Position numbers and translations under genes: made by a program. The notes beneath the pieces are model-generated. The model was given only the letters and a program-made list of their open reading frames with translations. It made no database searches and was not told the DNA's origin. A stretch of 39,902 bases of DNA from contig NZ_HE978512.1 of NCBI RefSeq assembly GCF_000311725.1, positions 1 through 39,902 of the forward strand, in the 5' to 3' direction. Shown one piece after another: positions 2,935-37,194 of the stretch; position 1 is the stretch's first letter; each line of letters starts with the position of its first letter. Source of the stretch: Robertmurraya massiliosenegalensis JC6 (lineage in GTDB: Bacteria > Bacillota > Bacilli > Bacillales > Cytobacillaceae).

Positions 2935-3063
2935 TTAAAGCATAAGTTTGTCACCTTTACTCTTAAAGCAAAAGTATGTCACCGTGACATTTTTATGGTT
3001 TAAGTCACACAAGCTGTGATTTTACCCATATTTCTGCCAAAAATTTAACCATATCTCTGCCAA
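2935..3063 (+). repeat. Candidate Tn7-like end, four-site type, copy A
   Basis: Two near-identical 20-mers lie 23 bases apart: TTTACCCATATTTCTGCCAA (3021-3040) and TTTAACCATATCTCTGCCAA (3044-3063). Two more divergent copies lie upstream, with cores CATAAGTTTGTCACC (2941-2955) and CAAAAGTATGTCACC (2969-2983). Relative to the last site the four sit at about 0, -23, -81 and -109, which reproduces the layout at 36876-37002. Arrays of TnsB-binding repeats are expected at Tn7-like ends; that these are TnsB sites is inference. ATGTCACCGTGACAT (2976-2990) is also a perfect palindrome around a central C. Confidence 0.6.
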
Positions 3064-3167
3064 CCCTTGATATCAATAGAATATTATATACTCAAACTAA
3101 AGAATATAATAGAAAACCAAATAAAATTGCAATTTTTTATATTGTAGCTTCAGATAATGCAATATTT
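3064..3167. other. Conserved spacer between inverted site arrays, copy A
   Basis: About 105 bases separate the plus- and minus-oriented sites. A 20-base stretch starting CTCAAAC and ending in TATAAT (3091-3110) matches 16 of 20 bases at the same offset in the block near 37030. TATAAT could be a -10 element, but no good -35 is visible in either copy. Confidence 0.45.
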
Positions 3168-3217
3168 TTGGCATTGATATAGTTAAAAATTATACTTTTG
3201 GCATTTATATAGTTAAA
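3168..3217 (-). repeat. Candidate Tn7-like end, two-site type, copy A
   Basis: Two 20-mers, TTGGCATTGATATAGTTAAA (3168-3187) and TTGGCATTTATATAGTTAAA (3198-3217), are reverse-oriented forms of the motif at 3021-3063. They are spaced exactly 30 bases apart, the same spacing as at 37105-37154. They sit just beyond the 3' end of tniQ1, where a transposon end would be expected. The putative terminus is near 3158 (TGCAATATT). Confidence 0.6.
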
Positions 3218-3257
3218 TACTTTTTAAATATATTGGAAAATACTTTTTGAATATTAC

Positions 3258-4658
3258 CTATTTGATTTCAATTTTTGTATGAGGCCCCTTTTTTCTCACC
3301 ACTCCCTTTTCTTTACATATTTCATTTAATAATACTCTGTTCGAATGGTTCCAAAAGTATGACGTCTTTCCCAATTTCCTTTCCACACTTTTTTGTGAAG
3401 GATATACGCCGTTCTCTAGCAAATGAGTTACAGCCTCACTTATTGCTTTCTTTTTCTCCTTTTTATTTTCACTCATATAGTTCTTATAATTTTTTATTAT
3501 GATATTACATTCGTTAGGTAGTTTTGTTTTTAAAGTCCTAGAATTTTTATAACCAAACGACCTAGCAACCTTTGCTAAGGATGGTGGTGGGTTATCTTTA
3601 TCATAAATAATTTCTATAATCTCTTTACGCAATTCGTCTATGTCATATTTTTTATGTGATTTATACCTTAAGTTATTGTCATAAATAAACTCAGGGAGCT
3701 GTCTAAGGCAAATATCCAACTCAATCTCCATCAGTAAAAATTTCTTCAATTTTATACCTGTTACATAGCTAATTTTTAATAATGAAATTAGGCCAATCCT
3801 TTGTTTCCCCTTGTCCCAGTTATAATATAATCTATTTGGTATTCTAACTAAATTAAAGAACTTTGTTTTATATATGGAGTACTTTTCAAAAACTTCATCA
3901 AAAATCTTATTGAAAAACTTATTAACATTATCTTCATAATTAACCCAAGTCTTCTTAATCCTATCCCTTTCATAGTTATTCAGAAGAAGTAAATCTATTA
4001 TATTTTCAATTATCCATTGCTGCCATTGTAAATATTCCTTTGAAACTTCAATAGTTTTATCATTCTTTGTGTAGCCTAGCCATGAACCACACTTATAACA
4101 ATATCCTATTGTTCCATTTCTGGATAAGTGATACTGCTCTGTGTTACACGATAGACAACTACAAATTAATTTACAATTATGTACATGACAAATTTCAACA
4201 ATATCCAATACCCACAATAACTTGTCAAATATCGGTAGTTTTCTATCTTTTGTTTCTTGATAGCAATGGGGACACCAATACTTACTCGAACTAACTTCAT
4301 AGTTAGATAGAAAAGTACTAAAATCTAACAGTGTATGTCCTTCCAATGTGCTAACAGTTGTTAACTCCTTTAATGCACTAACTAACTCCCATGCTCCTTG
4401 ATGAAAATTATTGAAGGAACTGGATTTCTTAGGAACCAATCCGTCGCGGGGAAAAGTTTCCTTACCCAAATACGGGTAGATGATCTTCCGGAAAAATACT
4501 CCTGCGTTCAGATTGTGAGCATTTATCAATCTAGTTAAGTAGCTAGTTAAACTCTCAGCATCTGCCGTACCAGTACCAATTGGAGATATGTTATATAGAA
4601 CGCTTCTAGATGGCAATTCTGGCAGTGTAGTGTTAATGGTCTTCCCCTCCCTTTCCAA
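3258..4658 (-). CDS. tniQ: TniQ/TnsD-family target-site selector (copy 1)
   Basis: A 466-residue TniQ-family protein, expected to bind a chromosomal target site and recruit TnsC and the transposase. The N-terminal TniQ signature runs from about residue 15 (SVLYNISPIGTGTADAESLTSYLTR). Zinc-binding cysteines follow: CPHC, then CxxH/CxxC-type clusters, then CYKC followed by WLGY. The C-terminal third is basic and looks like tandem helix-turn-helix segments (ARSFGYKNSRTLKTKL; KSVERKLGKTSYF). The length is closer to TnsD than to a minimal TniQ. The start is uncertain: a TTG at 4658 lies within the purine-rich sequence that may itself be the ribosome binding site. A terminator separates it from tnsC, so it is probably expressed on its own. 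Confidence 0.85.
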   Translation of the reverse strand: MEREGKTINTTLPELPSRSVLYNISPIGTGTADAESLTSYLTRLINAHNLNAGVFFRKIIYPYLGKETFPRDGLVPKKSSSFNNFHQGAWELVSALKELTTVSTLEGHTLLDFSTFLSNYEVSSSKYWCPHCYQETKDRKLPIFDKLLWVLDIVEICHVHNCKLICSCLSCNTEQYHLSRNGTIGYCYKCGSWLGYTKNDKTIEVSKEYLQWQQWIIENIIDLLLLNNYERDRIKKTWVNYEDNVNKFFNKIFDEVFEKYSIYKTKFFNLVRIPNRLYYNWDKGKQRIGLISLLKISYVTGIKLKKFLLMEIELDICLRQLPEFIYDNNLRYKSHKKYDIDELRKEIIEIIYDKDNPPPSLAKVARSFGYKNSRTLKTKLPNECNIIIKNYKNYMSENKKEKKKAISEAVTHLLENGVYPSQKSVERKLGKTSYFWNHSNRVLLNEICKEKGVVRKKGPHTKIEIK

Positions 4659-4691
4659 ATTGTCAATAATATTTTCTAGTATATAAATAAA

Positions 4692-4710
4692 ACCCCAAGT
4701 TTATGGGGCT
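4692..4710 (-). terminator. Terminator between tnsC and tniQ1
   Basis: On the minus strand an AGCCCCA/TGGGGTT stem is followed by TTTATTT, 20-odd bases after the tnsC stop. It would separate the transposase operon from tniQ1. Confidence 0.6.
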
Positions 4711-4731
4711 TACTTACAAATATCTTTTGGT

Positions 4732-5883
4732 TTAAAGTGCTTCATTGATTTCATTCACACCGACATGGTCCCTTTGGGCTTTTCTTTCACCAGGTTTCTT
4801 ATTTTTCTTATTTTCCCCCTCCGTTTTTACTTCATCTTCATCTGTTCCATAGGATTCAGTCTCTTCAATAAGCCCAAGTTGTCTATATAGCTCTTCTTCT
4901 TGATTTACGGATTTTTCGTATTTCTTCTCTCCTTCAGTAGCCTCTTTAAGTAATTTAATGCTTCTTCCTGGCGTAAGTTCATGACACTTAAAATCCTCAA
5001 TTTCTAGCGTTTTCTTACTTGGATTGTTTCTTGTAGAGGTCTGGTACGTTGAATATAACCAATCCTTTAAGATTCCGATACATCCTATAGAACGGCTATA
5101 GAAATAATCCCAATTAGTAATTAAATCTGGTTCTTCTTCTAACGGCAAGTGTTGTTGAAAGGCTAATAATACATTTATAAAAGACTTTAATTCATCTTTA
5201 TTTTTTGCATTATACCTTTTTATATGAACATCTTTACCTCTCCTTATTGTCTGGCCATTCAAATCTCTATAAGTAATTAAATCATAGTTGCCAGATAAAA
5301 CTATTGGAACGTTTGTCATATTAGCAAGTGACTTCAAGATATTTATCTGATTTCTAAGTTTTCTACTATTTGTTGTCATGCTAATATGCTGAGCTTCATC
5401 AATAAAAAAAGCTATTGGTTTTCTAAAAATCAATACATTTTCTAATGACCGTCTAAGTGCAGCCTTGCCATCATTTTTTAATTCTCTGTTTTCCACTTTT
5501 TCCTCAATGCTTATCTTATAATCGATTAAGGGTTCCTCAGCCATTACCAAACATCTGTAATAAAAATCTTTCCAATCAAAACTTCCGCTATCTGGTGGTA
5601 CAGCCTCAACAGTCAACGTTGGAAATAATCCCCTATTATTTATGTAGGTTTCAATATTATCCTCTATCAATTTTTCCTGTACTTTTTCAATTAACTTTGT
5701 TTTCCCTACCCCAGAAGTTCCATAAACTAGGATAATGGAATTTTTACTACCATTATTTATTCTATCTAACAAACCCTCATAAGCCTCTTCAAATGCAGGA
5801 TGAGAAACAGTGTACTTTCTAAAGTACTCATGCCTATCAGATAAAGACTTTTCTAAAAGTTCCCTTGGAAATTGCTGTACCAT
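4732..5883 (-). CDS. tnsC: TnsC-type AAA+ transposition regulator
   Basis: A 383-residue AAA+ ATPase. In Tn7-like systems TnsC links the target selector to the transposase and sets target immunity. Walker A is GTSGVGKT at residues 55-62, and Walker B is IAFFIDEAQHI near 155-165. A sensor-like segment (PIVLSGNYDL) follows, then an Arg-containing stretch. The C-terminal 60 residues are highly charged and probably disordered (GENKKNKKPGERK), which suits partner contacts. An AAGGAG site lies inside the end of tnsB, and the start codon is one base past the tnsB stop, so the genes are translationally coupled. It is shorter than Tn7 TnsC (about 555 residues), as in many Tn7 relatives. Confidence 0.9.
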   Translation of the reverse strand: MVQQFPRELLEKSLSDRHEYFRKYTVSHPAFEEAYEGLLDRINNGSKNSIILVYGTSGVGKTKLIEKVQEKLIEDNIETYINNRGLFPTLTVEAVPPDSGSFDWKDFYYRCLVMAEEPLIDYKISIEEKVENRELKNDGKAALRRSLENVLIFRKPIAFFIDEAQHISMTTNSRKLRNQINILKSLANMTNVPIVLSGNYDLITYRDLNGQTIRRGKDVHIKRYNAKNKDELKSFINVLLAFQQHLPLEEEPDLITNWDYFYSRSIGCIGILKDWLYSTYQTSTRNNPSKKTLEIEDFKCHELTPGRSIKLLKEATEGEKKYEKSVNQEEELYRQLGLIEETESYGTDEDEVKTEGENKKNKKPGERKAQRDHVGVNEINEAL

Positions 5884-5884: not shown

Positions 5885-8206
5885 TTATAACTCCTTGTAT
5901 ATCATAAACGAATTCTGTTCTTTCATTTCGTCAAGTATACTCTTAAATAAAGGTTTCTCATTTGGCTTTACGGCTTCCAATTGAGTCTCATGCTTTCTTT
6001 CTTTTGTCCCTTTTTTTTGAACAGATTTACTACTTTTTAATTCTTTAGTATTTGATTTTCCTCCATCTATTACAGTTAGAGAGTTCTTTACAGCCTTATC
6101 TCTTAATCGCTGTTTCATTAGAACTTCATGCTCTTCTACACTTTCCATAAAATCAACAATCTGAGAACTAGAAATATCTTTCTTCAATCCGAGTAATTTC
6201 TTTCTTTTTCTCAATTCTGACGTAACCATTTTAATTTCTTTTTCAGTGCGATTTTCTAATACTGCATAATGTTCTGAAGTTAACTCCGCCCAGTAATTAT
6301 TAATATAAGCATACGCAATTCCCATATTAAAAGGATCATATCTAACAGGAATTGATTTACCTTCTACGTCTGGATGAAGGAGAATCTCAGAATAATAATA
6401 AAAATAGTTAATTTTTACACCTTGACCAGCAATAACCTTAGCCGTTCCTTTTCTTGTTGAAGGTAAAGTTAGCATTTTGAATATTTCGTCATATCTAATA
6501 AACGTATTCTTTCGTAGACCAGTTTTTGCTATTCTTTTCACATACGTTTCTCTAGGACTTTCACCAATTGTACTATGTGGGGTATTATCATAAACTTCGT
6601 AATACCATCTTTCTAGCATAAAGTTTAAATCTTCTAAAGTCCAAATTGCATGATTTATTGGATTTACCTCTTTTGTAACTTGTCTAAAGTTTTTCATTAT
6701 TTTCGTATTTCCTAACAAGTTATGGATAAACATTTCATTTGTTATCCCAAAGTGTCTTTCACAAACAGTTCCAAAACGTGGTTTAGCTCCAGGTCTCACT
6801 TTCTTCCTCTTACCATACCTTGCAAGTAAAGTATCAAAATATACACTTTGAAAGTCCTTACCTCCATCTACAACTATGGTATCAGGTAGTCTAGAATGCC
6901 TCTTTACACATTCCCTCATGACCATCATACAAGACCTATAACTAGGAGGATCATATGTCAAATAATAGGCCATTATTCTTCTTGAAAATGCGTCTATCAT
7001 TATACTTACCCAAGGTTTTCCAAGGTTTTCTCCTGTTTCTGAACAAATTAATTGTATATCCAGTTCTGTATGATCTATATGGCATATTTCAAATGGTCGA
7101 TCTCCATGCCTTGGGGTAGTCATACTCAATTCATAATATACTGGTTCAGTTTTGTATGCTGCTTTTGGCCCCTGCTTCTTTAGTGTCTTAATATGAGTAG
7201 AACGTTTGTCCACTTCCTCTAAAAAGGTGTTAAAGCTTGGAACAGAATATCCTTTGTTCTTACACTCCTGTTTAAAAGTTCTATAAACTGTAAATGCTTT
7301 CTTTTGTATAATAGTTTCGTAATCATTAATAATGTAATCTTTCATTAAATCAATTACTTCTTGTTGAAAACGACGTACCCTATTTCCTTGATTCTTTCTG
7401 TTAGAGATCAGGCCCACATATCCATTCCCATAAAGGTTTTCCGCGTCACGGTACTTTTTAAGCCAGTCTCTTATAGTCCTTTCTTTTGGTTCAAAGTCAG
7501 AGTAATTTCCACCGTTTAACATACCTTGCACAACATAGTATCTCTTATTGGCTTCTTCTAAATCTTTTTCATTTGCACTCTTAATAATTTTGTTAATTTC
7601 TAGTTCCTTCTCAGTTTCAATGTGTCCGCTTATTCCTTTTATTGAACCATCTTTGATTAAATTTTCAAAAACTAATCTAGGCAATTCGGATACTTCTTCA
7701 TTATTATTTAATAATGTCAAGACATTTTCACCAACATTAATTATCGTACAAACATTACCATCCCAATTGACCTTTCTACCTATTTGAATATCAACATTAC
7801 TTGGCTTTAGTAATATAGGTTTAAAAGCTACTTCAAGATTTTGATAGGCATCAAAGGTTTGCTTATTTAAGAAGATAGGAAATTTATCAAAATCAATAAT
7901 CAAATAATTATTAATATCTACGTAAATTTCATTGATAGCCATTAGAGAATAAATATCATCAGCAGAAAAAGATGCCTGATCTTTTAGTAAATCTTCTAAC
8001 ATAATAGATGGCTTATTATTTATTAATTTTTTTATTATTGATGTAGCCTCAGTAGATACATAAGGAATTTCATCTAACAGATAGTCCTCTAAAAATCTTA
8101 TATTTCTTTGATAAATCCAGTTGATACTCTTTGATGATCTTATTCTGAAGGAAAGACCAAATTTTTTTGGCATATTCCTCTGCAGGAGGGCATCTCCATT
8201 CTCCAT
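5885..8206 (-). CDS. tnsB: TnsB DDE transposase with TnsA C-terminal domain at its N-terminus
   Basis: A frame of 773 codons. From about residue 145 it is a TnsB/Mu-type DDE transposase: an N-terminal DNA-binding part, then an rve-like core with Asp in CHIDHTELD (about 377), Asp in VVDGGKD (about 447) and Glu in GESPRETY (about 549), then a basic C-terminal tail for TnsC contact. Residues about 16-130 look instead like the C-terminal domain of TnsA: SFRIRSSKSINWIYQRNIRFL lines up with the FIFTDKEIN...NIEWL region of Tn7 TnsA. No credible ribosome binding site precedes the apparent start, and the frame overlaps tnsA by 137 bases. I infer that the native product is a TnsAB fusion of about 921 residues, joined by a frame change at the A7 run at 8162-8168, or a gene broken there. 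Confidence 0.85.
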   Translation of the reverse strand: MENGDALLQRNMPKKFGLSFRIRSSKSINWIYQRNIRFLEDYLLDEIPYVSTEATSIIKKLINNKPSIMLEDLLKDQASFSADDIYSLMAINEIYVDINNYLIIDFDKFPIFLNKQTFDAYQNLEVAFKPILLKPSNVDIQIGRKVNWDGNVCTIINVGENVLTLLNNNEEVSELPRLVFENLIKDGSIKGISGHIETEKELEINKIIKSANEKDLEEANKRYYVVQGMLNGGNYSDFEPKERTIRDWLKKYRDAENLYGNGYVGLISNRKNQGNRVRRFQQEVIDLMKDYIINDYETIIQKKAFTVYRTFKQECKNKGYSVPSFNTFLEEVDKRSTHIKTLKKQGPKAAYKTEPVYYELSMTTPRHGDRPFEICHIDHTELDIQLICSETGENLGKPWVSIMIDAFSRRIMAYYLTYDPPSYRSCMMVMRECVKRHSRLPDTIVVDGGKDFQSVYFDTLLARYGKRKKVRPGAKPRFGTVCERHFGITNEMFIHNLLGNTKIMKNFRQVTKEVNPINHAIWTLEDLNFMLERWYYEVYDNTPHSTIGESPRETYVKRIAKTGLRKNTFIRYDEIFKMLTLPSTRKGTAKVIAGQGVKINYFYYYSEILLHPDVEGKSIPVRYDPFNMGIAYAYINNYWAELTSEHYAVLENRTEKEIKMVTSELRKRKKLLGLKKDISSSQIVDFMESVEEHEVLMKQRLRDKAVKNSLTVIDGGKSNTKELKSSKSVQKKGTKERKHETQLEAVKPNEKPLFKSILDEMKEQNSFMIYKEL

Positions 8207-8651
8207 TCTCGTCCAAGCAGTATCGATTTGAATTCTTTTGGGATAATTTTATTAACTCATCCTCGGTTTTCCATTCCTCCCATCCTATCCAGTCCTTTTC
8301 AATGGTAAAAAAATCAGGAGTATAAATATGACCCACAGTTTTTTTCTTTGAATTTTTGGGTAAATCATACTTTATAGTAAAGGAAGGTGGTTGATCGTAG
8401 TATTCAAGAACATTAGGATCATGCTCTTTCTCGTAAATGCCTGCTAATTCTAATTTATGACTTTCAAACTGTATAGTGACTCCCATTTTTTTGCTAGGGT
8501 AGAATCCATAGACATTTTTTCCATTGCTTTTAACTTTTCTTGATGGTTGGGATTTCCTTACATTTCCAATGATTTTAAAGGCTTCATTACTAATGTTATT
8601 CTGTTTCAAACATTCTTCAAAAAGTACATTATCCATCATGTTCACCACCAT
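8070..8651 (-). CDS. tnsA: TnsA endonuclease domain, frame leaves TnsA homology at residue 163
   Basis: TnsA cuts the 5' ends of the transposon so that the element moves by cut-and-paste. Catalytic candidates match the restriction-like fold of Tn7 TnsA: E63 (QFESHKLE), D113 (YTPDFF) and the E126-x-K128 pair (WEEWK). The frame is 193 codons against 273 in Tn7. Up to A161-K162-K163 it follows TnsA; the last 30 residues do not, and the expected continuation is found one base shifted in the tnsB frame. Starts at 8639 or 8636 (after GGTGGTGAAC) are preferred over 8651. Either a frameshift yields TnsAB, or this is a catalytic domain without its TnsC-binding part. Confidence 0.85.
   Translation of the reverse strand: MVVNMMDNVLFEECLKQNNISNEAFKIIGNVRKSQPSRKVKSNGKNVYGFYPSKKMGVTIQFESHKLELAGIYEKEHDPNVLEYYDQPPSFTIKYDLPKNSKKKTVGHIYTPDFFTIEKDWIGWEEWKTEDELIKLSQKNSNRYCLDENGEWRCPPAEEYAKKIWSFLQNKIIKEYQLDLSKKYKIFRGLSVR
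8162..8168 (-). other. A7 homopolymer at the tnsA/tnsB frame switch
   Basis: On the coding strand the sequence is GCC-A7-TTTGG. Reading GCC AAA AAA ATT stays in tnsA. Losing one A gives GCC AAA AAA TTT GGT and enters the tnsB frame exactly where TnsA homology continues. Runs of this length are known sites of transcriptional slippage and of sequencing or replication indels. Confidence 0.7.
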
Positions 8652-8882: not shown

Positions 8883-10184
8883 TTAATCGAGGGAAATTTT
8901 TAAATACTCGTTTTTTAATTCAATCCATTTCTCTCTTAAAAAACTTTCTTTCACAAAATACTTATGCTTAAGCAACTCCTCAACTACTCTTCTGCTCGGA
9001 TATTCTCCACTGTTAATCAGCTCGGAGACTATACTTTCTAACCTTATATTAATTTCTTGTTGCCTTTGCATTTTCTGATGCTCCAAATAGTACCTATGAT
9101 TTTCTACAATTATTTTGCTCTCTACTGGGAACTTGCTATAAAGTAATTTTCTATCGCAGCCTATTATTTCAGCAACCCTCTTCAAAGAATCTGCTCCATC
9201 GTTCTTAATCCTATCATCCAAGATTTCCTTAATCTCTTTATAATCAAATTTAAATCTAGACTTTGGAATAACTACTGGGGATTTAGTGTCTAATATTATC
9301 TCAGATGGAATCTCTTCAATTCCTAAAAACTCCAAGACAGATAGTTTCAACATTAAACAAACTCTAATTATATTTGGAAGAGGTGCTAAGTTAATACCCT
9401 TGATCCAATACCTTAATGTTGTTTCTGGTGTAGATAATAGTTTTGACATTTTCCCAATATTTCCGTCAAAGAATATTTTAGATATCTTTTGAAATGAATC
9501 GGCTATTACATTTTTGTTGAATTTTAAGGGTTCATTTTTTGAGCTATAGGAAATCATTTGTCCAACTAGAGTAGATTCTTGTATTTCCACCTGACTAGGT
9601 TCAATACTAGAAAAACTTCCATCTCCTAACCAGGCGTAACAATACTGACAATATCCTGGTTTTGTCTTCCTTGAAAGAATCTTTAGTGTCTTTGAACAAT
9701 TATGACACCTGGATTCAAGGTATACTTTGTGTTTGGGGCAACAAAGGACAGTCTTTATACACCATAATAATTGGTCATATATAATTTCATTTTTTTTCAT
9801 TTTTTCATCCAAACATAAAGTACACCAAGCTTTATGGTCTTTCATTAATCCTCTTGTAGGTAAAGTATTTGACCAGAACACAAGCGTCATTTTTCGTATA
9901 TCGTCTCTTAGATTTAGTAATTGAACGACATTAATAAAGTCATTTGCAAGAGTACCGATTCCATTTATTCCGGTAGCAGAATCAAAAAATCCATTTCCAC
10001 CTCTTTTTGCTATTTCAGTAATATAATACTTATCTAAATATGGAGATAGTAATTTTGATACAAAGTTTCCAGTTGTAAGACAATGGTACAATGACAGACG
10101 GGAAATATAACTAGTGAGAGATTCAGCATAAAAAGTTCCTAATCCTATTGGTTCGATGTTATATAAAGTTGTTCTGGATTCCAT
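8883..10184 (-). CDS. tniQ: TniQ/TnsD-family target-site selector (copy 2)
   Basis: A second full-length TniQ-family protein, 433 residues, upstream of tnsA on the same strand. TTLYNIEPIGLGTFYAESLTS marks the TniQ N-terminus. Zinc-ligand clusters follow: CTLC, CCPKH, CHNC, then CQYCYAWLG. A helix-turn-helix-like segment (AEIIGCDRKLLYSKF) lies near 340. The start is supported by GGAGG a few bases upstream. It resembles the broken copy at 37681-38385 more closely than tniQ1 does, including RGGNGF and the PTRGLM-AWC stretch. Two selectors in one Tn7-like element usually serve two target types; which is which cannot be told here. About 230 bases separate it from tnsA. Confidence 0.85.
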   Translation of the reverse strand: MESRTTLYNIEPIGLGTFYAESLTSYISRLSLYHCLTTGNFVSKLLSPYLDKYYITEIAKRGGNGFFDSATGINGIGTLANDFINVVQLLNLRDDIRKMTLVFWSNTLPTRGLMKDHKAWCTLCLDEKMKKNEIIYDQLLWCIKTVLCCPKHKVYLESRCHNCSKTLKILSRKTKPGYCQYCYAWLGDGSFSSIEPSQVEIQESTLVGQMISYSSKNEPLKFNKNVIADSFQKISKIFFDGNIGKMSKLLSTPETTLRYWIKGINLAPLPNIIRVCLMLKLSVLEFLGIEEIPSEIILDTKSPVVIPKSRFKFDYKEIKEILDDRIKNDGADSLKRVAEIIGCDRKLLYSKFPVESKIIVENHRYYLEHQKMQRQQEINIRLESIVSELINSGEYPSRRVVEELLKHKYFVKESFLREKWIELKNEYLKISLD

Positions 10185-11305: not shown

Positions 11306-11505
11306 TCACAAAGGAAGATTTAGTTGCCACGAAACTCCGAAGCGGTCATTTATCCAACCAAACTTTTTACTGAAACCATAATCGCCTAATGGCATAAGTG
11401 CTTGTCTTCCTTCACCCAGTTTTTCATAAAGATTGTCAAGTTCTTCTTCAGTATTACAAGTAACAAAGATTGAAAAAGATGGTGTAAAAGTGAATTGACC
11501 TCTAT
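11306..11505 (-). pseudogene. C-terminal fragment of a VOC/PhnB-like protein
   Basis: The segment FSIFVTCNTEEELDNLYEKL...LMPLGDYGFSKKFGWINDRFGVSWQLNL is the typical C-terminal half of small VOC (glyoxalase-fold, PhnB-like) proteins. The N-terminal half is missing. Upstream of about residue 30 the frame runs antisense through a dapA fragment, so the apparent start at 11557 is artificial. The fragment is the product of a deletion or rearrangement. Confidence 0.75.
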
Positions 11506-11733
11506 CTTGAAGGAAAAGTTGTTCGAGCAAGCAACTTGCATCGAGAATTACTACCAATATTTGAGGGACTCTTTATTACAACTAACCCTGCTCCTATAAA
11601 ATACGCTTTGAGAGTAACAGGAATTCCAGTAGGAACAGTAAGATTACCACTAGTCCAAGTAAATGAAAATGAGAGAGATATGATTAATTCCCTCTTAGAG
11701 GAATTTCAAGAATACTTGATAAAGAAAAAGTAG
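11506..11733 (+). pseudogene. dapA: 3' fragment of dapA-like gene
   Basis: LEGKVVRASNLHRELLPIFEGLF...NPAPIKYALRVTGIPVGTVRLPL is the C-terminal end of the dihydrodipicolinate synthase (DapA)/N-acetylneuraminate lyase family. About the first 220 residues, including the Schiff-base lysine, are absent. It lies back to back with the VOC fragment, the two breakpoints meeting near 11495-11510. It is nonfunctional. A terminator follows the stop. Confidence 0.75.
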
Positions 11734-11748
11734 CTTTCTATTCGAAAC

Positions 11749-11774
11749 AAGGGTTGCCTTTATAGGCAACCCTT
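11749..11774. terminator. Convergent bidirectional terminator
   Basis: A perfect stem AAGGGTTGCC / GGCAACCCTT with a 6-base loop lies between the plus-strand dapA fragment and the minus-strand cyclo-ligase-like gene, serving both directions. Confidence 0.75.
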
Positions 11775-11799
11775 ATCATTATGTGAATACCTTTAATAG

Positions 11800-12513: not shown

Positions 12514-12599
12514 CTATGATCTTCTCCCTACACTTTTTAACTCTTTATACTAATTATTTCCAACAGTTTCATAATATTACTTACTATATCGCAGTTTAT

Positions 12600-26123: not shown

Positions 26124-26175
26124 GTTTGAGAATTACATGTAAACATTATATTTACCGAAAGGAGTTTTTAATCGG

Positions 26176-28125: not shown

Positions 28126-28718
28126 ACCTAGAAAGCTCTCAACCTCTTGAATATAGTACGAACCAAAATCAATATAATATATTTGGCTTCTGGATTTTCC
28201 TTGGAGCTGAAATCATGCTATTTGCAACATTATTTACGTCCTATTTTACTTTAGAGCATCGGACTGGTACTGGTCCTACAGGCGCAGAAATTTTTGATAT
28301 CACCCCGGTATTGATTGAGACATTTATACTATTAACTAGTAGTTTCACTATTGGTCTAGCTGTTCACGCCATGCGCCTTGGTAGACAAAAGGCAATGTTA
28401 GCTTTCTTCGGGATTACGTTGCTTCTTGGTTCAGCCTTCTTAGGTGTTGAAATCTACGAATTCGTTCACTATGTTCATATAGGTGCAGGTTTGCAGACAA
28501 GTGCCTTTACAGCAATATTATTGACTACATTAGGAACCCACGGTGCGCACGTTACATTCGGTTTAGTTTGGGGAATAATTATTATCCTTCAAATAAAAAA
28601 TAGTGGGTTAACTGCAGAAAACGCTGGTAAAACATTTATTTTTTCATTGTATTGGCATTTCTTAGATGTTGTTTGGATCTTCATTTTTAGCTTCATCTAT
28701 TTGAAAGGATTGATGTAA
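28122..28718 (+). CDS. qoxC: Quinol oxidase aa3 subunit III
   Basis: A 198-residue subunit III with five membrane helices. IFGFWIFLGAEIMLFATLF opens the first, and WHFLDVVWIFIFSFIYL is the family's C-terminal signature. It overlaps the qoxB stop (ATGA) and is followed one base later by qoxD, so translation is coupled. Confidence 0.93.
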   Translation: MNLESSQPLEYSTNQNQYNIFGFWIFLGAEIMLFATLFTSYFTLEHRTGTGPTGAEIFDITPVLIETFILLTSSFTIGLAVHAMRLGRQKAMLAFFGITLLLGSAFLGVEIYEFVHYVHIGAGLQTSAFTAILLTTLGTHGAHVTFGLVWGIIIILQIKNSGLTAENAGKTFIFSLYWHFLDVVWIFIFSFIYLKGLM

Positions 28719-28719
28719 A

Positions 28720-29001
28720 ATGAATGAATTATTTCCGCGTAAGCAAGTATTGGGCTTTGTTTTTTCATTAGTTCTTACTTTTGTTGCTCTTACTGTGTAT
28801 CTTTTTAATCTATCATTTGCTGTTGGTATCACAATTTTGATTATCACAGCACTTGTTCAGGCCACCCTTCAGTTAGTTGTCTTTATGCATGCAGGTGAAA
28901 CGGAGGATAAAGTTGCCATTTATACCAACGTTTATTTCATGGTGTTAATTGCGCTCATTACTATTTTTGGTACATTGTTTATATTCCTTTGGGATATGTA
29001 A
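28720..29001 (+). CDS. qoxD: Quinol oxidase aa3 subunit IV
   Basis: A 93-residue, three-helix subunit IV (CyoD/QoxD family). The markers QVLGFVFSLVLTFVAL and QATLQLVVFMHAGE are present. It is slightly short but complete. It is the last gene of the operon. No strong terminator follows before the IS3 relic at 29190. Confidence 0.9.
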   Translation: MNELFPRKQVLGFVFSLVLTFVALTVYLFNLSFAVGITILIITALVQATLQLVVFMHAGETEDKVAIYTNVYFMVLIALITIFGTLFIFLWDM

Positions 29002-29922: not shown

Positions 29923-31884
29923 TCACACTTCCAACAATTCTCTAGTTTCAACTTCAACACTAAATCCTATACTTTTTAACTTTTCCACCAAGTCCTTAGA
30001 AAAATCTTCAACCTTGGACTTTTCAATAAAAATAGTTAAATTGCTTCTTGCTCTTGAACACCCTACATAAAAAAGCTTATAAGCAGAAAGAACTCCATAT
30101 ACAGAACTTTCTTTAAAACATTTTTTAATATTTGTAACATTAGGTTTTAGAAGGTATTTATTATAAGAGTCTTCACACAGGTCTTTAAATATAAAATTCC
30201 CCTCAAAGTGATTGCATAATTGTTCTACCCTTGTTTTTAAGTAAGTTGCATATGTATCGTAACTTTCTTTATTTAAATCAGATATTTTGCATCCCAAATG
30301 ATTAGTTGTATCTCTGATCCATTGAATATAATTATAATAGAAAGTTTCTAGGGTATCTAAAGATAGTTCCTTGATAGTCCATAGCTTCAAAAACTTATAC
30401 AAATGAACTACTGGTGTTCTATAAGAGTCTTCTGCAATAAAGAATACAGTTTTATGACTTTCCCCTTTTACACCATGCTGTGTTGAGACTGTTGGATCTT
30501 TCAAATAATTTGATAGTGCTTTGAATTCACTTAGTTTTACTGCTAAAACTTCCATATATTCATTGTCTATGTTATCTATGTAGCTATTTTTAAAGATATC
30601 TAATTCCTTCAATAAATTTACAAATTCATTAATTGAGATTTCTTTTTGATAAGCGTCATATATCTTACTTAATAGTTTGCACAAATTAACTCTATCTTGG
30701 TGGCTCGTAATTGTGCCAATACTCTTATTAAATAAGTTGCGATTTGCTTTTATAAATTGAATTATACTTCCAAGATTAAATCTTTCGTAATGATCTAACA
30801 CTTCACCTACTACAAAAAGCAGCTTCAAAAGGGGATCTGAATTTTCATTAGTATTATCAGATAAGACATCAGTAGCACTAAGTTGTTTTATATATGAATA
30901 TCTATCCAACTTATTAAATTGCTTATATAATTCACCTGCACCAATCGAATCGAATCTTTGTTGGTTTAATAAAAATAACAATAAAGCATCCGGATAGTTT
31001 GAACACTCGCTCTTAAGCCTTTCTTTAATGTCACTGCACATTATTACTCTTGGTGGATGGTCTGGTTTTAGTTCACGGTTTCTGTCAGAGGGGTCTTGTT
31101 TGAATTCTTGATTATTATATATATTGTTTAACACAGAAATGATATCTGGTATTGACCGGTGGTTGGTTTCTAATTTTATTGTAGTATTTAGAGTTTTTAA
31201 TTCTTCTTCAAACGACCCATCATAGTTCTTATATATTTGTTGCATTTTATCACCAAGAAAATAGAGGTTTGAATTAGTATTTAGGCATGCATCATAAAAC
31301 ATTCTTAATACACTAGAAGCTGAGTCTTGGTACTCATCGATGAAAATTAATTGATATTTTTGTGTTAGTCTCAACTTAATCTTTGGAAACTTTTCAAACA
31401 CTTTTTCTGCGAATATTAGCAAACTATCGTGGGATATCCCCCCATTATAAAGGTGATTGGCAGAAGACTCGTTATAATAAATGGCGCCTATATTAGCCTT
31501 GATAACTTCTATTGATAACCCCCCGTATTTATCAATATATTTTTGATTTCTGATAGATATATACTCTTGCCCGTTGTTATTCTCTATATTTTCTCTGATT
31601 AAATCTCCAAATATTTCAAAATATAAATCCTTCATTTCATTTTTACAAAAGTAAAATCTCAAAAATTTGTAAAGAAATGAATGAATTGTACTGATGTCAA
31701 TCCGTTCTTCATTTAAGCCTTTTTTTAGCTCTTCTGCTGCTCTTTTTGTATAGGTTATACAAAGTACATTGTCTTCAGGATGTTTTGTCGTATGGTTTAC
31801 AATCATTGATTTTATTTTTGTTGTTTTGCCACTACCTGCTGGGGCATTAACTAGAAAGATGTTTTCTACTATTTTTGCAGCCAA
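29923..31884 (-). CDS. UvrD/Rep-type SF1 helicase, GajB-like
   Basis: A 653-residue superfamily 1A helicase with all main motifs: Walker A APAGSGKTT (14-22), Ia ITYTKRAAEEL, II IFIDEYQDSAS (about 185), III YFLGDKMQQIY, IV LETNHRS, V STQHGVKGES and VI FYVGCSRARSNL (about 610). It follows an OLD-family nuclease and overlaps it by 16 bases. That gene pair and order is the signature of Gabija anti-phage defence, where GajB is the helicase-like partner of GajA. It is longer than the characterised GajB (about 494 residues), so a Gabija-related subtype or another OLD-plus-UvrD system is possible. Confidence 0.82.
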   Translation of the reverse strand: MAAKIVENIFLVNAPAGSGKTTKIKSMIVNHTTKHPEDNVLCITYTKRAAEELKKGLNEERIDISTIHSFLYKFLRFYFCKNEMKDLYFEIFGDLIRENIENNNGQEYISIRNQKYIDKYGGLSIEVIKANIGAIYYNESSANHLYNGGISHDSLLIFAEKVFEKFPKIKLRLTQKYQLIFIDEYQDSASSVLRMFYDACLNTNSNLYFLGDKMQQIYKNYDGSFEEELKTLNTTIKLETNHRSIPDIISVLNNIYNNQEFKQDPSDRNRELKPDHPPRVIMCSDIKERLKSECSNYPDALLLFLLNQQRFDSIGAGELYKQFNKLDRYSYIKQLSATDVLSDNTNENSDPLLKLLFVVGEVLDHYERFNLGSIIQFIKANRNLFNKSIGTITSHQDRVNLCKLLSKIYDAYQKEISINEFVNLLKELDIFKNSYIDNIDNEYMEVLAVKLSEFKALSNYLKDPTVSTQHGVKGESHKTVFFIAEDSYRTPVVHLYKFLKLWTIKELSLDTLETFYYNYIQWIRDTTNHLGCKISDLNKESYDTYATYLKTRVEQLCNHFEGNFIFKDLCEDSYNKYLLKPNVTNIKKCFKESSVYGVLSAYKLFYVGCSRARSNLTIFIEKSKVEDFSKDLVEKLKSIGFSVEVETRELLEV

Positions 31885-33974
31885 TCTAATCCCTCCTTAA
31901 TATAATTTGGTAGCATCTTTTCTATCAGACCATTTAGAATAACAGAATACATAAAATCAGTCTTTCTATTTTCTGTATGTCTAACAATATCTCTAATACT
32001 ATATTTTTCATCTATTGCTGAACCATCTTCCTTGGAATTTACAGAATTTGGAACAGTATATTTTAATTCATCTATATCTCTATTTTGGATCCAAAAATTT
32101 CTATCTTTTTTTTCTAGCACATCAAGTTTGTAAAACTTTGACAGCATAGCTTCTTCTAATGTCCGAGCATACTGCTCAACTTCCCCTTGATAACTAACAA
32201 GAGCAAGCCCCCCGAACAATTTATTCTCACCTTTTTCTTTCCATTTATATAAATCAAGTACTGTTGGAGATTTTATTCCTGTTGCCTGATTATAAAAGCT
32301 GTTAATTGTTGCATTTGTTGTTTCAGACTCTATTACAGCTCCTGCAGTTACTGCAGTTTTTTTGTAATCTAAATCAGTTAATATAAGAGTTTTAATTTGC
32401 AGAAAATTAATTACCTTACTATATTTATGTGCGTATGCACCACCCACCTGTACATATGCTATGTACTTCTGATTGAGCTCTTCATATGTATCTAAAGTTA
32501 ATATCTTTCTAATAAGTAATCGTTCTGTATCACCTTCATAAAGAATAACTCTATCTGCAAAAACAATTTCAGAAAATCCGATTTCATAAAACCAATCATA
32601 AAATGTATCTAAAGTTGGATCACCACTCAAGCTTTTTTTAAATGTTGAAAAGTCATAAATTTTACTTTCCAAATTGTCCAAGGATCGTGAAACTCTAAGA
32701 TTTTTCATTTCTGTTAGACGTACGATTTCCCCAGAATGAGTAGTTATTAAACCCTGTATTTTCTTTTGAAGATAGTAATCTTTTAAGTATTTTCCGAAAA
32801 TTCTTTGCATTTGAGGATGCATATGTGATTCCGGCTCCTCAATAATAAAAAGGTTCACTAGTAATGGATTTATTTTTCTTTTATATGTTTCAAGCTGTAA
32901 AAGAATATAAATCATATTGCTATAACCTAACCCCTGAGAAGCCTCATTGAGAAAATAACCTTCGTACTGGTATTTAGTATTAGTTATTTGATTAAGCAGA
33001 GAGGTTATTGTTTCCTCATTAATATCTACATCAAGAACCAAACTTCCCGTATTTCCTCCACTTGCTTTAGCAATAGTTTTGATTGCATTGCTAAGACCTA
33101 TAACAGAAGCATCTCTAACCTCATCAATAATTTTCGCATCTTGAATAGGACTGAGTATTTGATCTGGCAAGTCCTCTAGAAGAGCACTTAATTTTTCATT
33201 ATGAGTTGCTAGTTGAACCATATTTTTACTTAAACTTTTAAAGTTTCCGTTATTCTGATCATCAAGCGGTCTACCTGCATTTATATATTTATAATTAAAA
33301 AGCCTTCTAAAAGCTTGTACTTCCATCTCTACTCTTTCTCTATACTTGCTATCGCTAAAGTAACACCTTTCAACAATACTTGCTTCATAAACAGACAATA
33401 TTACCTCTTTAAACTGCTTAACCTTTGAAGTTGGATCATCTAAAATTTGAATTTTTTTATATCTTGCAAATAATCTTTTGAAATTATCTTCTAATGCTTG
33501 TCCAAAAGATAATCTAGTTGGCTGAAATGAATATTCAAAATAGAAGCTTCTATTATCAGGATTCAAATCCATAATAAAATCCGCAAATTTTCTAATATCC
33601 TCATTTTCACTATAATCTATTCTAAATCGTACAGATGTCGAAGGAATTATTAGATTACTGAATTGACTAGACGATTCAGTACCAAATAACTCCGTTACAA
33701 TTGATTCTACTGTTGATAATTGGTCCTCTCCTTTATTAAAGCAGTATATAAAGATGTCATACACTTTATCAACCCACTGATTTGACAGTTTTACTGGAAT
33801 GTCGGATATATAAAAAGGTGTTTTACCGTTTTGCATTATAGAACCTATTAAATTTATCATAGACGTCTTCCCACTATTATTAGCACCAGCTAGTAAAGTA
33901 ACGTCATCAACCATTGAGAATGATTCATTTTTAAACTTTCTATAATTTTGTATGGTTATTTTTTTTAAAAGCAC
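31869..33974 (-). CDS. OLD-family ATPase/TOPRIM nuclease, GajA-like
   Basis: A 701-residue protein with an N-terminal ABC-type ATPase and a C-terminal TOPRIM nuclease. Walker A is GANNSGKTS (30-38). ASQGLGYSN resembles the ABC signature, and FIIEEPESHMHPQMQ is Walker B followed by the D-loop. GLITTHSGEIV carries the switch histidine. TOPRIM residues are Glu in LYEGDTERLL (about 477) and the DLD in ILTDLDYKK (about 538). This is the architecture of GajA and class 2 OLD nucleases. The start is GTG with AAGGGG upstream. An IS21-family element lies only 16 bases before the start codon, next to the ribosome binding site, and has probably replaced the native promoter region. Confidence 0.85.
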   Translation of the reverse strand: MLLKKITIQNYRKFKNESFSMVDDVTLLAGANNSGKTSMINLIGSIMQNGKTPFYISDIPVKLSNQWVDKVYDIFIYCFNKGEDQLSTVESIVTELFGTESSSQFSNLIIPSTSVRFRIDYSENEDIRKFADFIMDLNPDNRSFYFEYSFQPTRLSFGQALEDNFKRLFARYKKIQILDDPTSKVKQFKEVILSVYEASIVERCYFSDSKYRERVEMEVQAFRRLFNYKYINAGRPLDDQNNGNFKSLSKNMVQLATHNEKLSALLEDLPDQILSPIQDAKIIDEVRDASVIGLSNAIKTIAKASGGNTGSLVLDVDINEETITSLLNQITNTKYQYEGYFLNEASQGLGYSNMIYILLQLETYKRKINPLLVNLFIIEEPESHMHPQMQRIFGKYLKDYYLQKKIQGLITTHSGEIVRLTEMKNLRVSRSLDNLESKIYDFSTFKKSLSGDPTLDTFYDWFYEIGFSEIVFADRVILYEGDTERLLIRKILTLDTYEELNQKYIAYVQVGGAYAHKYSKVINFLQIKTLILTDLDYKKTAVTAGAVIESETTNATINSFYNQATGIKSPTVLDLYKWKEKGENKLFGGLALVSYQGEVEQYARTLEEAMLSKFYKLDVLEKKDRNFWIQNRDIDELKYTVPNSVNSKEDGSAIDEKYSIRDIVRHTENRKTDFMYSVILNGLIEKMLPNYIKEGLDWLQK

Positions 33975-34146: not shown

Positions 34147-35571
34147 ATGCTAGCAATGTCTGAAATTAATTGTATCAAACACTTAAGAAACAACAAAGGG
34201 TTATCTATTACCAAAATTCAACAAACATTAAAAATTAATTGGAGAACGGCTAAGAAGTATGCAGATAAAGACCAAATACCTACAACAAAGGTCTCTCCTA
34301 AAAAAGGGATGATGTATGAAGAAAATTGGGGAGAGATTGTATCAGATTGGCTATTTGAAGACTCTAAATTAAAAAGAAAAGAAAGAAGAACCAAGAAGAA
34401 AATGTTTGAAGAGCTGCAGGAACTAAGATTCAAAGGGTCCTATCGGACTCTATGTTATTTCATTGAAGATTGGAACAATACACACAGCCATGAAAAAGAT
34501 AAAGGATACGAACGCTTAGAGCACCCGCCAGGGGAAGCACAAGTAGACTTCGGAGTAATGGGAGCAGTTCAAGATGGAGAGTTGGTAGATGTACGAGCTC
34601 TAGTTATGTCCTATCCACATAGTAATGCTGGATTTGCGGTGCCTCTTCCGTCTGAAAATCAAGAGTGCTTCCTTCATGGACTTCAGTTGTTGTTCAAACA
34701 GGCTGGCGGCGTCCCAATGAAACTGAGAATTGATAATTTAACTCCCGCAGTAAAAAAAATACGGACAAAAACAGAAGAGGTTCAACTTACTGATGAGTTC
34801 TTGGCATTTCAAAACCATTATGGCTTTGAGGTCCAAGTATGTAATCCTAGAAGTGGACATGAAAAAGGAAACGTTGAAAACAAGGTTGGTTACATTCGGT
34901 ATAATTTCTTTAATAAAGCTCCCGTTATGACTAGTTTTGAGGATCTAACAGTTCAGTTGGAGAAGCAATTAATAGAAGATCGAAATCGCCTACATTATGA
35001 AAAGAACGTGTTAATAAACGAGCTTTGGCAGAATGAAAAAAAGTACTTACTTCAGTTACCAAATATAGAATACCCAGTGTTTAAAGAAGAGACCGGTAAA
35101 GTAAATAAATACAATGAAATAAAAATAGATCAAGTGCTTGTCCATGTTCCAAAAGCGTCGAATTATAGTTTGCTTTACGTTCAATTAACATGGAACACAG
35201 TCAAGGTTGTCTCACCTGACGGTGAGATTTTATTAGATGATTATCGACCATATATGAAAAAACGAAAGGCTCTTCCTTGGATGTCCATCTTAAAGACATG
35301 GATTCATAAGCCTCGTGCAGTCTCGTATTCTCGGTACAAAGATTATTTACCCGGTAGGGTTAAAGATTACTTACTTGTAGATCACTTGGCTATTAGAAGA
35401 GAGCGTTTAAAGGCAGTAGCTGGTTTACTCATTACGTATGATATGAAACGCATAAACGAGGAGTTTTATGAACTTATCGCTGAAGAAAAATTGGGAAAAG
35501 AAGAAAATCCCTACGAGATTAATTGGGAAGAATATGATTCCTTGACCTCAAAGAAGGAGATTAAGCTATGA
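34147..35571 (+). CDS. istA: IS21 transposase
   Basis: A 474-residue IstA. The N-terminal helix-turn-helix (GLSITKIQQTLKINWRTAKKY) is followed by an rve-type core: Asp in EAQVDFGVMG (about 138), Asp in LRIDNLTPAV (about 195) and Glu in GHEKGNVENKVGY (about 240). It carries out strand cleavage and transfer. It overlaps istB by 4 bases. It appears full length. Confidence 0.95.
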   Translation: MLAMSEINCIKHLRNNKGLSITKIQQTLKINWRTAKKYADKDQIPTTKVSPKKGMMYEENWGEIVSDWLFEDSKLKRKERRTKKKMFEELQELRFKGSYRTLCYFIEDWNNTHSHEKDKGYERLEHPPGEAQVDFGVMGAVQDGELVDVRALVMSYPHSNAGFAVPLPSENQECFLHGLQLLFKQAGGVPMKLRIDNLTPAVKKIRTKTEEVQLTDEFLAFQNHYGFEVQVCNPRSGHEKGNVENKVGYIRYNFFNKAPVMTSFEDLTVQLEKQLIEDRNRLHYEKNVLINELWQNEKKYLLQLPNIEYPVFKEETGKVNKYNEIKIDQVLVHVPKASNYSLLYVQLTWNTVKVVSPDGEILLDDYRPYMKKRKALPWMSILKTWIHKPRAVSYSRYKDYLPGRVKDYLLVDHLAIRRERLKAVAGLLITYDMKRINEEFYELIAEEKLGKEENPYEINWEEYDSLTSKKEIKL

Positions 35572-36293
35572 GTAACTACCTTCGAAACAAGTGCAAATCA
35601 TTGAGATTAGCATATATAGCCGAGGTCTATGAGCAAATTCCATTTGAAACAAAAGAACAATTCCTAAACGATTTATTAGATGAAGAATTAAGATTAAGAG
35701 AAACAGCAAAAGCTCATCGTCTGATTAAGAAAGCTAGATTCCTGGATAAAAAGAATTTAGAAGAATACGAATGGACAGAGCAAATTCATATGCCCTCTCA
35801 CCTTAATAAAGAGGAGTTACTGCGGCTAGATTTTATAGGAAGAAAACAAAATGTCTTACTAGTTGGAACGCCAGGAACGGGAAAAACGCATCTAGCAACT
35901 GGCTTGGGCAGAAAAGCTTGTTCAATGGGATACGAAGTTGGATTTTATCGTGTCTCACATCTAGTGGAGGAATTAGAAAAGGCATTAAGATTGAACCGTC
36001 TCTCGTCATTCAGAAATAAAATTCAAAAACTAGATTTAATCATCCTAGATGAAATGGGGTATCTTCCTTTTAGTAAAGAAGGTGCTGAGCTATTATTCCA
36101 ACTCATTTCAGAGTGTTACGAACAAAAGAGTCTTATTCTTACATCAAATTTAGAATTTAGTCAGTGGAACCGGATATTTGCCGATTCTAGGCTAACAGCA
36201 GCTTTAGTCGATCGTTTAATTCATCACGCACACATTATCACTTTTCAGGGGGAAAGTTACCGGCTTTCAAATGCTTTGTCTAAAAGAAGGTAA
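35568..36293 (+). CDS. istB: IS21 helper ATPase
   Basis: A 241-residue AAA+ ATPase related to DnaC. Walker A is VGTPGTGKTHLATGL (about 99-113) and Walker B is LIILDEMGYLPF (about 158-169). It selects the target and activates IstA. Its start overlaps the istA stop (ATGAG), so translation is coupled. It appears full length. Confidence 0.95.
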   Translation: MSNYLRNKCKSLRLAYIAEVYEQIPFETKEQFLNDLLDEELRLRETAKAHRLIKKARFLDKKNLEEYEWTEQIHMPSHLNKEELLRLDFIGRKQNVLLVGTPGTGKTHLATGLGRKACSMGYEVGFYRVSHLVEELEKALRLNRLSSFRNKIQKLDLIILDEMGYLPFSKEGAELLFQLISECYEQKSLILTSNLEFSQWNRIFADSRLTAALVDRLIHHAHIITFQGESYRLSNALSKRR

Positions 36294-36360
36294 TTTCCCT
36301 GGGTGGCAAAAGTCTGCATTTTTGATTGCATAATTCTGCACTTTTCTATTGCAAAATACA

Positions 36361-36875
36361 CCTAACTACATATTTATGTAAAAAGTACTATATATTTGCC
36401 TTCCAATTTCTAAAATCTAATAATATCCTACCAATAATTTACTATATAAGGTAGATCAATACACACTAAATCTAAATAAAGTAAAAAAAGAATTAATAGA
36501 CTGAATCTATTAATCCTTTTTACTACAAAACAGAATGTTTACTTTAATAATCTAGTTGTAAAAATTTGATAGTAATCACCTATTTATTTTATACTTAAAT
36601 GAATTTTTACATTTTTATAAAACCTCATTTACTTATTGTACGAACCACTCCGATTAATCCAAAACAACGTCTTGGACTATTCTTCCACAATCTAGCCCGA
36701 TTGTGGAAGAATAAAACATCCCACATATACAGGATGTTTAATCAAACTTTATTTTAAATAACCGTAATTTTTTACAAATAATCCTTTTTATAAAACTACA
36801 TCTGTCAATTGGTATAACATTTTTTCAATAATAATTATTTCTTAATATTTTCTAATAAAAGAAAATTATAATTCG
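36361..36875. other. Non-coding region with tandem hairpins
   Basis: I see no gene. Hairpins: ATTAATAGA/TCTATTAAT followed by CCTTTTT (36492-36521, terminator-like in both directions); a perfect 14-base stem at 36679-36712 (ATTCTTCCACAATC and its complement); AACATCC/GGATGTT at 36715-36738. This was probably the upstream region of the GajA-like gene before IS21 arrived. Confidence 0.5.
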
Positions 36876-37013
36876 TTTAAGTATATTTTTGCCGAACCTT
36901 TTTTTAAGTATACCATTGCCACAATGGCAAAAATATCATTAAATTCACAAAAATGCGACTTTACCCATAATTTTACCAAGTGTTTACCCATATTGTTGCC
37001 AACCCTTTATACA
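36876..37013 (+). repeat. Candidate Tn7-like end, four-site type, copy B
   Basis: Plus-oriented motif copies start at 36876 (TTTAAGTATATTTTTGCCGA), 36903 (TTTAAGTATACCATTGCC), 36960 (TTTACCCATAATTTTACCAA) and 36983 (TTTACCCATATTGTTGCCAA). Relative to the last they sit at -107, -80, -23 and 0, matching copy A within two bases. CCCTTTATACA follows; the ACA at 37011-37013 fits a Tn7-like terminus. TTGCCA-CAA-TGGCAA near 36916-36930 adds a small palindrome. Confidence 0.6.
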
Positions 37014-37104
37014 TCTACCTTTAGCAGCGCTCAATCCATAGAGTATAATTTAAATTTTTAGGTTACATCTTTCAATCCCTCAAAAAAACAGAAAATTACA
37101 ACTC
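37014..37104. other. Conserved spacer between inverted site arrays, copy B
   Basis: A 20-base stretch at 37030-37049 (starts CTCAATCC, ends TATAAT) matches copy A at the same offset in 16 of 20 bases. A CAGAAAATTACAA-like stretch before the next motif also resembles copy A. The rest is diverged. Confidence 0.4.
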
Positions 37105-37154
37105 CCGGCAATGATATCCTTCTTATTTAAACTTTAGGCAATAATATGTGTATT
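37105..37154 (-). repeat. Candidate Tn7-like end, two-site type, copy B
   Basis: CCGGCAATGATATCC and TAGGCAATAATATGTG hold GGCA cores at 37107 and 37137, 30 bases apart and minus-oriented, as in copy A at 3168-3217. These copies are more degenerate, in line with the broken tniQ beside them. Confidence 0.5.
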
Positions 37155-37194
37155 TGGATTAAATTTGTCATTTTTATAAAAGACTTGTTGATTA

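Follow-up and report, generated by a model that had tools for sequence, protein, structure and literature searches.

What do two matching blocks of short repeated motifs, about 34 kb apart, delimit in the genome of Robertmurraya massiliosenegalensis JC6? The window, i.e. the whole stretch of DNA analysed here, comprises 39,902 nucleotides and corresponds to positions 1-39902 of contig C2 of the source genome, with coordinates counted from the contig start. We consider it very probable that the window contains a section of a stack formed by Tn7-like transposons whose homing target is the 3' end of ssrA, the gene for transfer-messenger RNA (tmRNA), a stack that ends 47.9 kb beyond the window, 30 nt after ssrA. 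Genes for TnsA, TnsB, TnsC and TniQ/TnsD are present together, as expected of a Tn7-like element (tnsAB is frameshifted in the window and open in a relative, G008). Arrays of ~20-bp repeated sites occur at both ends and are inverted between the ends, and insertion lies downstream of a conserved gene that is left intact.

Both blocks and their motif offsets, first described in an initial annotation made from this sequence, are readily reproduced. Plus-oriented motif copies start at 2935, 2963, 3021 and 3044 in the first block and at 36876, 36903, 36960 and 36983 in the second, and pairs of minus-oriented copies, 30 bases apart, follow at about 3170/3200 and 37107/37137. Aligned with each other, the blocks reach a best local score of 46, well above the maximum of 25 among 1000 dinucleotide-shuffled pairs. 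Across 105 kb of the contig there are 11 motif matches with at most two mismatches, all located at element ends, whereas shuffling the sequence 100 times gave an average of 0.29 and never more than 2, keeping in mind that this count is not an independent test, the motif having been written from the very sites that are counted. The first two plus copies belong to different site classes in the two blocks (..TGTCA in the first, ..TTGCC in the second), and each block also holds an inverted site near its right terminus (2985-3003 and 36925-36943) that had previously been missed.

How should the blocks be divided? Each reads as the right end of one element abutting the left end of the next, so that the initial annotation was correct about the Tn7-like nature of the locus, the abutment, the tandem layout and the presence of one element between parts of two others. 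It went astray in the boundaries. It had assigned all four plus copies to the right end and the two minus copies to the left end, giving an element at 3158-37013 with the spacer between them as a carried or relic sequence. All four plus copies are indeed real, and their spacing is nearly equal in both blocks. Yet right ends that abut ssrA, in the source genome and in others, stop at ...TCACA straight after the inverted site and have neither the two further plus copies nor the spacer; left ends of another class hold the same inward copies, gap and outward copies; and the five bases outside 3158 (GATAA) differ from those outside 37013 (TCTAC). We regard this division as highly improbable. Because the ssrA-abutting right ends stop before them, the two extra plus copies and the spacer instead belong to the left end of the next element. 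Read from outside, the terminus of an ssrA-abutting right end is TGTGACTTAAACCATAATTTTGCC, which aligns as an imperfect terminal repeat with TGTGATTTTACCCATATTTCTGCC (3015 onwards) and TGCGACTTTACCCATAATTTTACC (36954 onwards). These alignments place the end of a distal element, X1, at 3009, and delimit element B at 3015-36949 (33,935 bp) and element C at 36954-87802 (50,849 bp), the right part of C lying outside the window.

With these limits the order of features along the DNA is as follows. The right end of X1 (2935-3009, TGTCA class) has outward sites at 2935-2953 and 2963-2981, its inverted outermost site at 2985-3003 and the terminus ...TCACA at 3009; an end 90% identical to it lies on contig C7 of the source genome. 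Next comes CAAGC (3010-3014), the same five bases as at 87803-87807 beside ssrA. The left end of B (3015-3217) opens with the terminus TGTGATTTTACCC at 3015, followed by inward sites at 3021-3039 and 3044-3062, a gap of ~105 bases, and outward sites at 3169-3187 and 3199-3217. At the other end of B (36876-36949, TTGCC class), outward sites at 36876-36894 and 36903-36921 precede the inverted outermost site at 36925-36943 and the terminus ...TTCACA at 36949. The four bases between B and C (36950-36953) are AAAA and differ from CAAGC. The left end of C (36954-37155) has the terminus TGCGACTTTACCC, inward sites at 36960-36978 and 36983-37001, and decayed outward sites at 37107 and 37137. On the same contig, the right end at 87729-87802 abuts CAAGC and then ssrA, and the right end in G008 abuts ssrA likewise.

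The same anatomy recurs in relatives. The full left-end layout (+7 and +30 inward, a gap of ~105, +156 and +186 outward) is found in four of the ten left ends listed (B, G008, G117 and G013), which belong to classes TTGCC and TTTCC; it is partial in C, G109 and G074, and the left end of G006 is cut by a contig end. Right ends carry an inward site at +7 and outward sites at +30 and +57 in 15 of the 15 listed, give or take one base and with at most three mismatches, bearing in mind that many of these ends were found with a pattern that overlaps the +7 site. Three site classes can be told apart by their cores (TTGCC, TGTCA and TTTCC), and all share the right-end layout and the attachment (att) site. 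The arrays would presumably be bound by TnsB. In prototype Tn7 all sites of a given end share one orientation, and a figure legend in PMC8649781 draws them so. Here, the outermost site is inverted in all 15 right ends, and in the full-layout left ends the two tip sites are inverted relative to the inner ones. It is unusual that the outermost site at each end opposes the inner ones, and that three site classes share one att site.

As to the spacer, the initial annotation had regarded it as conserved, and as either part of the end or a carried target site. Its length is nearly constant, whereas its sequence match between the blocks is close to chance (46 of 1000 shuffles reach the score). Against 1000 shuffles, the similarity between the spacers of B and G008 is reached by 54 and that between C and G008 by 460, so that the likeness is one of length, plus the first ~20 bases between B and G008. 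The spacer lies inside the left end. We reject the idea of a carried target, as the same gap occurs in left ends of two classes, TTGCC (B, G008) and TTTCC (G117, G013).

What, then, links these elements to ssrA? A tmRNA gene, recognised by Rfam, adjoins the last right end in the source genome and in relatives, and the right terminus falls 26-33 nt past the CCA of the tmRNA in all 26 right ends measured (19 + 7 rows), where the genome-collection scan behind the right-end rows permitted distances of about 19-49. That scan returned 21 matches, 18 of them in Bacillota, and Rfam confirmed a tmRNA in 17 of these 18; for the last, L090, only the 3' end of ssrA is visible. The other three (Legionella, Sulfurovum and Bacteriovoracaceae) are without tmRNA and were dropped as chance matches. 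Within the host family, 8 of the 193 genomes show the strict end pattern at ssrA. The degenerate ends close to ssrA in G002 and G059 are not among the 26. Taken together, ssrA appears to be a regular landing site of these Tn7-like elements. A lenient scan yielded mostly noise among the matches listed, and limits of the elements in G105, G059 and G197 were not found.

Since integrases are known to use ssrA as a hot spot (PMC10121019, as far as its text was available), one might imagine that an ordinary island was placed there by a site-specific integrase, with the Tn7-like genes as mere passengers. G059 does have a second ssrA 3' end. Against this, no tyrosine or serine recombinase family was detected by Pfam in the 30 of 37 open reading frames (ORFs) of the window that were scanned, matches to rve being transposases, and the boundaries consist of TGTGA terminal repeats and 5-bp duplications 26-33 nt past the end of ssrA, not of a duplicated ssrA 3' end. 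We judge an integrase origin very improbable and favour homing by Tn7-like transposition. The stretch in G059 (L129, G059:C1 about 649066-649380) combines an uninterrupted ssrA, an intron-like stretch, a second ssrA 3' end with terminator, and a degenerate right end.

The target gene itself often looks broken. Of the 26 right-end rows, 14 have an ssrA that looks interrupted ahead of its final ~20 nt and 12 an uninterrupted one, a call that outside the source genome was made solely from the sequence preceding the break. In the source genome the interruption is a group I intron-like insert in the T-loop (L013 7860-8135, equivalent to contig C2 87859-88134), which matches RF00028 with an E-value of 1.8e-9 and 42.6 bits, short of the gathering score of 50. 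Insertion distances are similar either way (26-33 nt with an interrupted versus 26-31 nt with an uninterrupted ssrA), and the selector should therefore read the last part of ssrA together with the terminator rather than the T-arm, which lies upstream of the break.

Related transposase genes tend to lie near ssrA. Searching the 193 genomes of the host family with the G008 TnsAB protein (E <=1e-40), we find matches in 13, and in ten of these TnsAB is located on the ssrA contig, on the same strand and 3' of ssrA, within 80 kb. A number of observations sit less comfortably with ssrA homing. TnsAB is on a contig other than that of ssrA in G014 and G002, which leaves these two undecidable, and G186 has two related TnsAB genes, neither of which is 3' of its tmRNA genes (in this assembly, contaminated to 13%, three matches exceed the tmRNA cut-off). 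The left ends of G014 (TGTCA class) and G186 are without the full layout; a site class could not be assigned in five of 19 right-end rows; and the right end in L083 has hardly any inner site and may not be an end. In the window itself, B is 51 kb from ssrA, and its tnsAB is frameshifted. The G186 genes, at C2 2905610-2908132 and 3887380-3889953, may use another att site. Away from ssrA, the source genome has another TGTCA-type right end (L011 4974-5067, contig C7 224973-225066). A second ssrA stack at this right end on C7 is not supported; elsewhere in that stretch there are a glmS riboswitch and tRNAs.

Element B encodes two TniQ proteins of TnsD length, one upstream of tnsAB and one downstream of tnsC, raising the question of which might select ssrA. 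When elements are compared in pairs, the upstream proteins resemble each other more closely than the downstream ones do in 33 of 36 cases (means of 37.7% versus 30.7%), and in 26 of 28 when G105 is left out; the pairs are not independent, and the G105 protein, located after tnsC, was counted as an upstream one on the strength of its similarity. In G186, the stretch retrieved around one element lacks an upstream TniQ, whereas the other element has a more distant one (21-30%). A TniQ tree cannot serve as proof of a single ssrA clade: its backbone is unresolved, bootstrap values are unsettled and one G186 upstream TniQ from an element not at ssrA falls, on a long branch, among the upstream TniQ proteins of ssrA elements, which speaks against this protein as a marker of ssrA elements. 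On the pairwise comparison, we propose the upstream TniQ as ssrA selector.

Target duplications offer a further test of the termini. Perfect 5-bp duplications are present in four of five relatives with paired termini: CACAT in G008, AAAAA in G109, TACAA in G006 (across two contigs) and TTTCA in G117. In the fifth, G074, the flanks CAAAA/AAAAA match at four of five bases. G013 was left unpaired, as its two ends belong to different classes. Not all of this is favourable: AAAAA in G109 is weak evidence, as it sits in an A/T-rich terminator tail, and neither B alone (CAAGC/AAAAT) nor C alone (AAAAA/CAAGC) has matching flanks. The initial annotation had reported no clean 5-bp duplication, which holds for B by itself; taking the left end of B with the right end of C, the flanks are CAAGC/CAAGC, the second copy (87803-87807) lying outside the window.

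CAAGC is present at the two outer ends but absent where B meets C. The two elements may therefore have arrived together, and we give about an even chance to their having entered as one 84.8-kb composite. As C shows, among transposition genes, only a broken tniQ, it would have moved with the proteins of B. A caveat is that a single junction carries this reading. An alternative, which concerns the composite step and leaves ssrA homing untouched, is stepwise arrival: B inserted first and C later at the same spot, with the B/C junction decaying since. Stepwise stacking fits the junctions between different classes and the duplications in G006, G008 and G109, and the left end of C is indeed decayed, with the tip TGCGAC and outward sites that have at least four mismatches to the motif. 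Insertion at the same position, however, predicts CAAGC between B and C, where AAAA is found, and several changes would be needed there while the outer copies stayed intact. Moreover, AAAAA is the very duplication seen at ssrA in G109, as expected if the B/C junction had formed in another host. Stepwise arrival is thus plausible, if somewhat short of an even bet.

Abutting ends are not peculiar to the source genome; they also occur in G008, G006, G014 and G109. Among 11 junctions and close end pairs, classed by eye, nine combine different cores, B/C combines the same core and one (G002) is unclassable. At least nine of ten junctions with different cores would be expected ~10% of the time under three equal classes. 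As a hypothesis, target immunity might be class-specific. In two relatives (G106:C1 4060289/4060365 and G005:C15 53035/53112), two right ends of different classes are stacked at a distance of 76-77 bp, without an intervening element. In such pairs it looks as though a deletion had removed all of one element but its end.

From what can be seen in the sequence, that is the genes, termini, site arrays, junctions, adjacency to ssrA and duplications in relatives, we infer binding of the arrays by TnsB, an ssrA-selecting TniQ, an order of insertion and composite transposition. A TnsD-like TniQ, most likely the upstream one, would bind DNA at the end of ssrA, and TnsC would relay this choice of target. 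The TnsA-TnsB fusion would excise the element at its TGTGA...TCACA termini, and the element would be joined just beyond the terminator, 26-33 nt after the CCA of the tmRNA, with a 5-bp duplication. New insertions would land between ssrA and earlier elements and push older ones outwards; because each insertion would fall there, right and left ends come to abut, as in the two blocks. The window would thus hold B between the distal X1 and C, with B and C perhaps moved as a composite via their outer ends. A broader scenario, which we offer tentatively and hold to be less likely than not, is that a Bacillaceae lineage of I-B2-like Tn7 elements without CRISPR adopted the tRNA-like end of ssrA and split into at least three end-site classes; a core of its own would give each class a specific immunity, letting different classes stack at one ssrA, while a transposase could use the outer ends of neighbours, so that the decayed C, without tns genes, was carried in the 85-kb composite.

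How does this family relate to known systems? The nearest solved TnsAB is 9bw1 (842 bits; the next has 58 bits), which we take to be the structure of the TnsABCD transpososome from the type I-B CRISPR-associated transposon (CAST) of the Peltigera membranacea cyanobiont, this element being PmcCAST (Tn7744), from which 8fcu presumably also derives. The transpososome is the subject of PMC12585508, and the accessible text of PMC11406308 classes PmcCAST as I-B2 and gives a tRNA as its att. PDB TnsD 8v32, likewise of PmcCAST, is the best solved match to both TniQ proteins. Like PmcCAST, the window element has a TnsA-TnsB fusion (a 922-aa frame in G008), TnsC and a TnsD-type selector. Unlike it, no CRISPR-Cas genes or array were seen in the window, the host is a member of Bacillaceae and the target is ssrA; the window element also has two TnsD-length TniQ proteins and opposed sites at each end (the end layout of PmcCAST lies outside this comparison). 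The CRISPR-Cas scan covered the window, where Pfam found no Cas family in 30 of 37 ORFs, and the best 20 of 33 direct-repeat families listed all have two copies. Where I-B2 and I-D CASTs use a tRNA gene as att, here it is ssrA, whose 3' end is tRNA-like. In CyCAST (Tn7745, I-D), the part of PMC10293859 available to us describes TnsD homing to a point about 30-33 nt beyond a tRNA gene, a distance that resembles 26-33 nt after the tmRNA CCA; CyCAST differs in being cyanobacterial, carrying CRISPR-Cas and targeting tRNA-Leu.

Tn7 at glmS shares TnsABC with a TniQ-family selector, unequal site arrays, a 5-bp duplication and an att on the right-end side (PMC11406308, in the same excerpt), and differs in its separate TnsA and TnsB and in its target. 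Side-by-side Tn7-like sets at one att gene have a parallel in BCEGI-1 of Bacillus cereus ATCC 10987, for which the passages seen of PMC2359905 describe two Tn7-like gene sets in tandem, at glmS instead of ssrA; the likeness noted concerns the gene sets. The tmRNA gene as landing place has one in hotspot 9 of E. coli, where the excerpt of PMC10121019 places prophages and islands, along with transposons of an unnamed kind; there the explanation is integrases, and the Tn7-like Tn6230 is at another hotspot. PMC12452197, as far as seen, uses ssrA as a reference for quantitative PCR. No account of Tn7-like elements inserted at ssrA came to light in the literature searched, from which subscription papers were mostly absent, so that novelty of the site is not proven.

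On present sequence evidence this is a real, well-delimited system: a family of Tn7-like elements that home to ssrA, have end sites in opposed orientation and stack at a single att. It points to the tmRNA gene as an att gene of Tn7-like elements and suggests a link to the tRNA-homing TnsD branch. Copies of ssrA that either carry or lack an insert a few bases upstream, together with tRNA genes in relatives, form a natural series from which to learn what TnsD reads. Opposed outermost sites put current models of end recognition to the test, and boundary finders that assume one orientation per end may miss such ends. The stacks, finally, make target immunity and the composite movement of Tn7-like islands testable.

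The transposition genes of B lie at its left, all on the minus strand. The tniQ downstream of tnsC (3258-4658) encodes a TnsD-like protein of 466 aa (Pfam TniQ; PDB TnsD 8v32, E 2.1e-50); it is followed by a tnsC/TniB-type AAA ATPase gene (4732-5883, by Pfam), 75% identical to its G008 counterpart, and by tnsAB (5885-8651) in two overlapping frames, 8070-8651 for the N part of TnsA and 5885-8206 for its C part plus TnsB. The window copy is frameshifted at a homopolymer run, where G008 has one frame, and the tnsAB frames of several relatives are without stops; B is probably immobile now, barring a sequencing error at the break or some way of bypassing it. The tniQ upstream of tnsAB (8883-10184; 433 aa, Pfam TniQ, PDB TnsD 8v32, E 5.4e-58) is the proposed ssrA target selector.

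Further inside B, metabolic genes occupy 11306-29001, including a lysine decarboxylase-type gene (18813-20297) and a cytochrome c oxidase operon (25230-29001). The genes at 10.5-29 kb look like cargo because the source genome has further COX1 copies on contigs C1 and C5 and a 74% identical lysine decarboxylase-type gene on C1. The contrary idea, raised by the initial annotation as a way in which its island could fail, that they are syntenic core in related genomes, was not borne out as far as tested, although COX1 genes 85-86% identical do occur in three genomes of the same genus. A Gabija anti-phage pair follows on the minus strand (29923-33974; GajB 29923-31884, GajA 31869-33974, by PADLOC); it looks complete, and the G008 element has type I restriction-modification genes instead. 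An IS21-type transposase and helper lie inside B at 34147-36293 on the plus strand. Of the transposition genes of C, a search with G008 proteins up to 105 kb along the contig found only a broken tniQ (37679-38357, minus strand), nearest to the TniQ upstream of tnsAB in G008. The left part of C also holds an IS3-type transposase fragment (37199-37516), followed by a perfect 22-bp inverted repeat (37550-37595).

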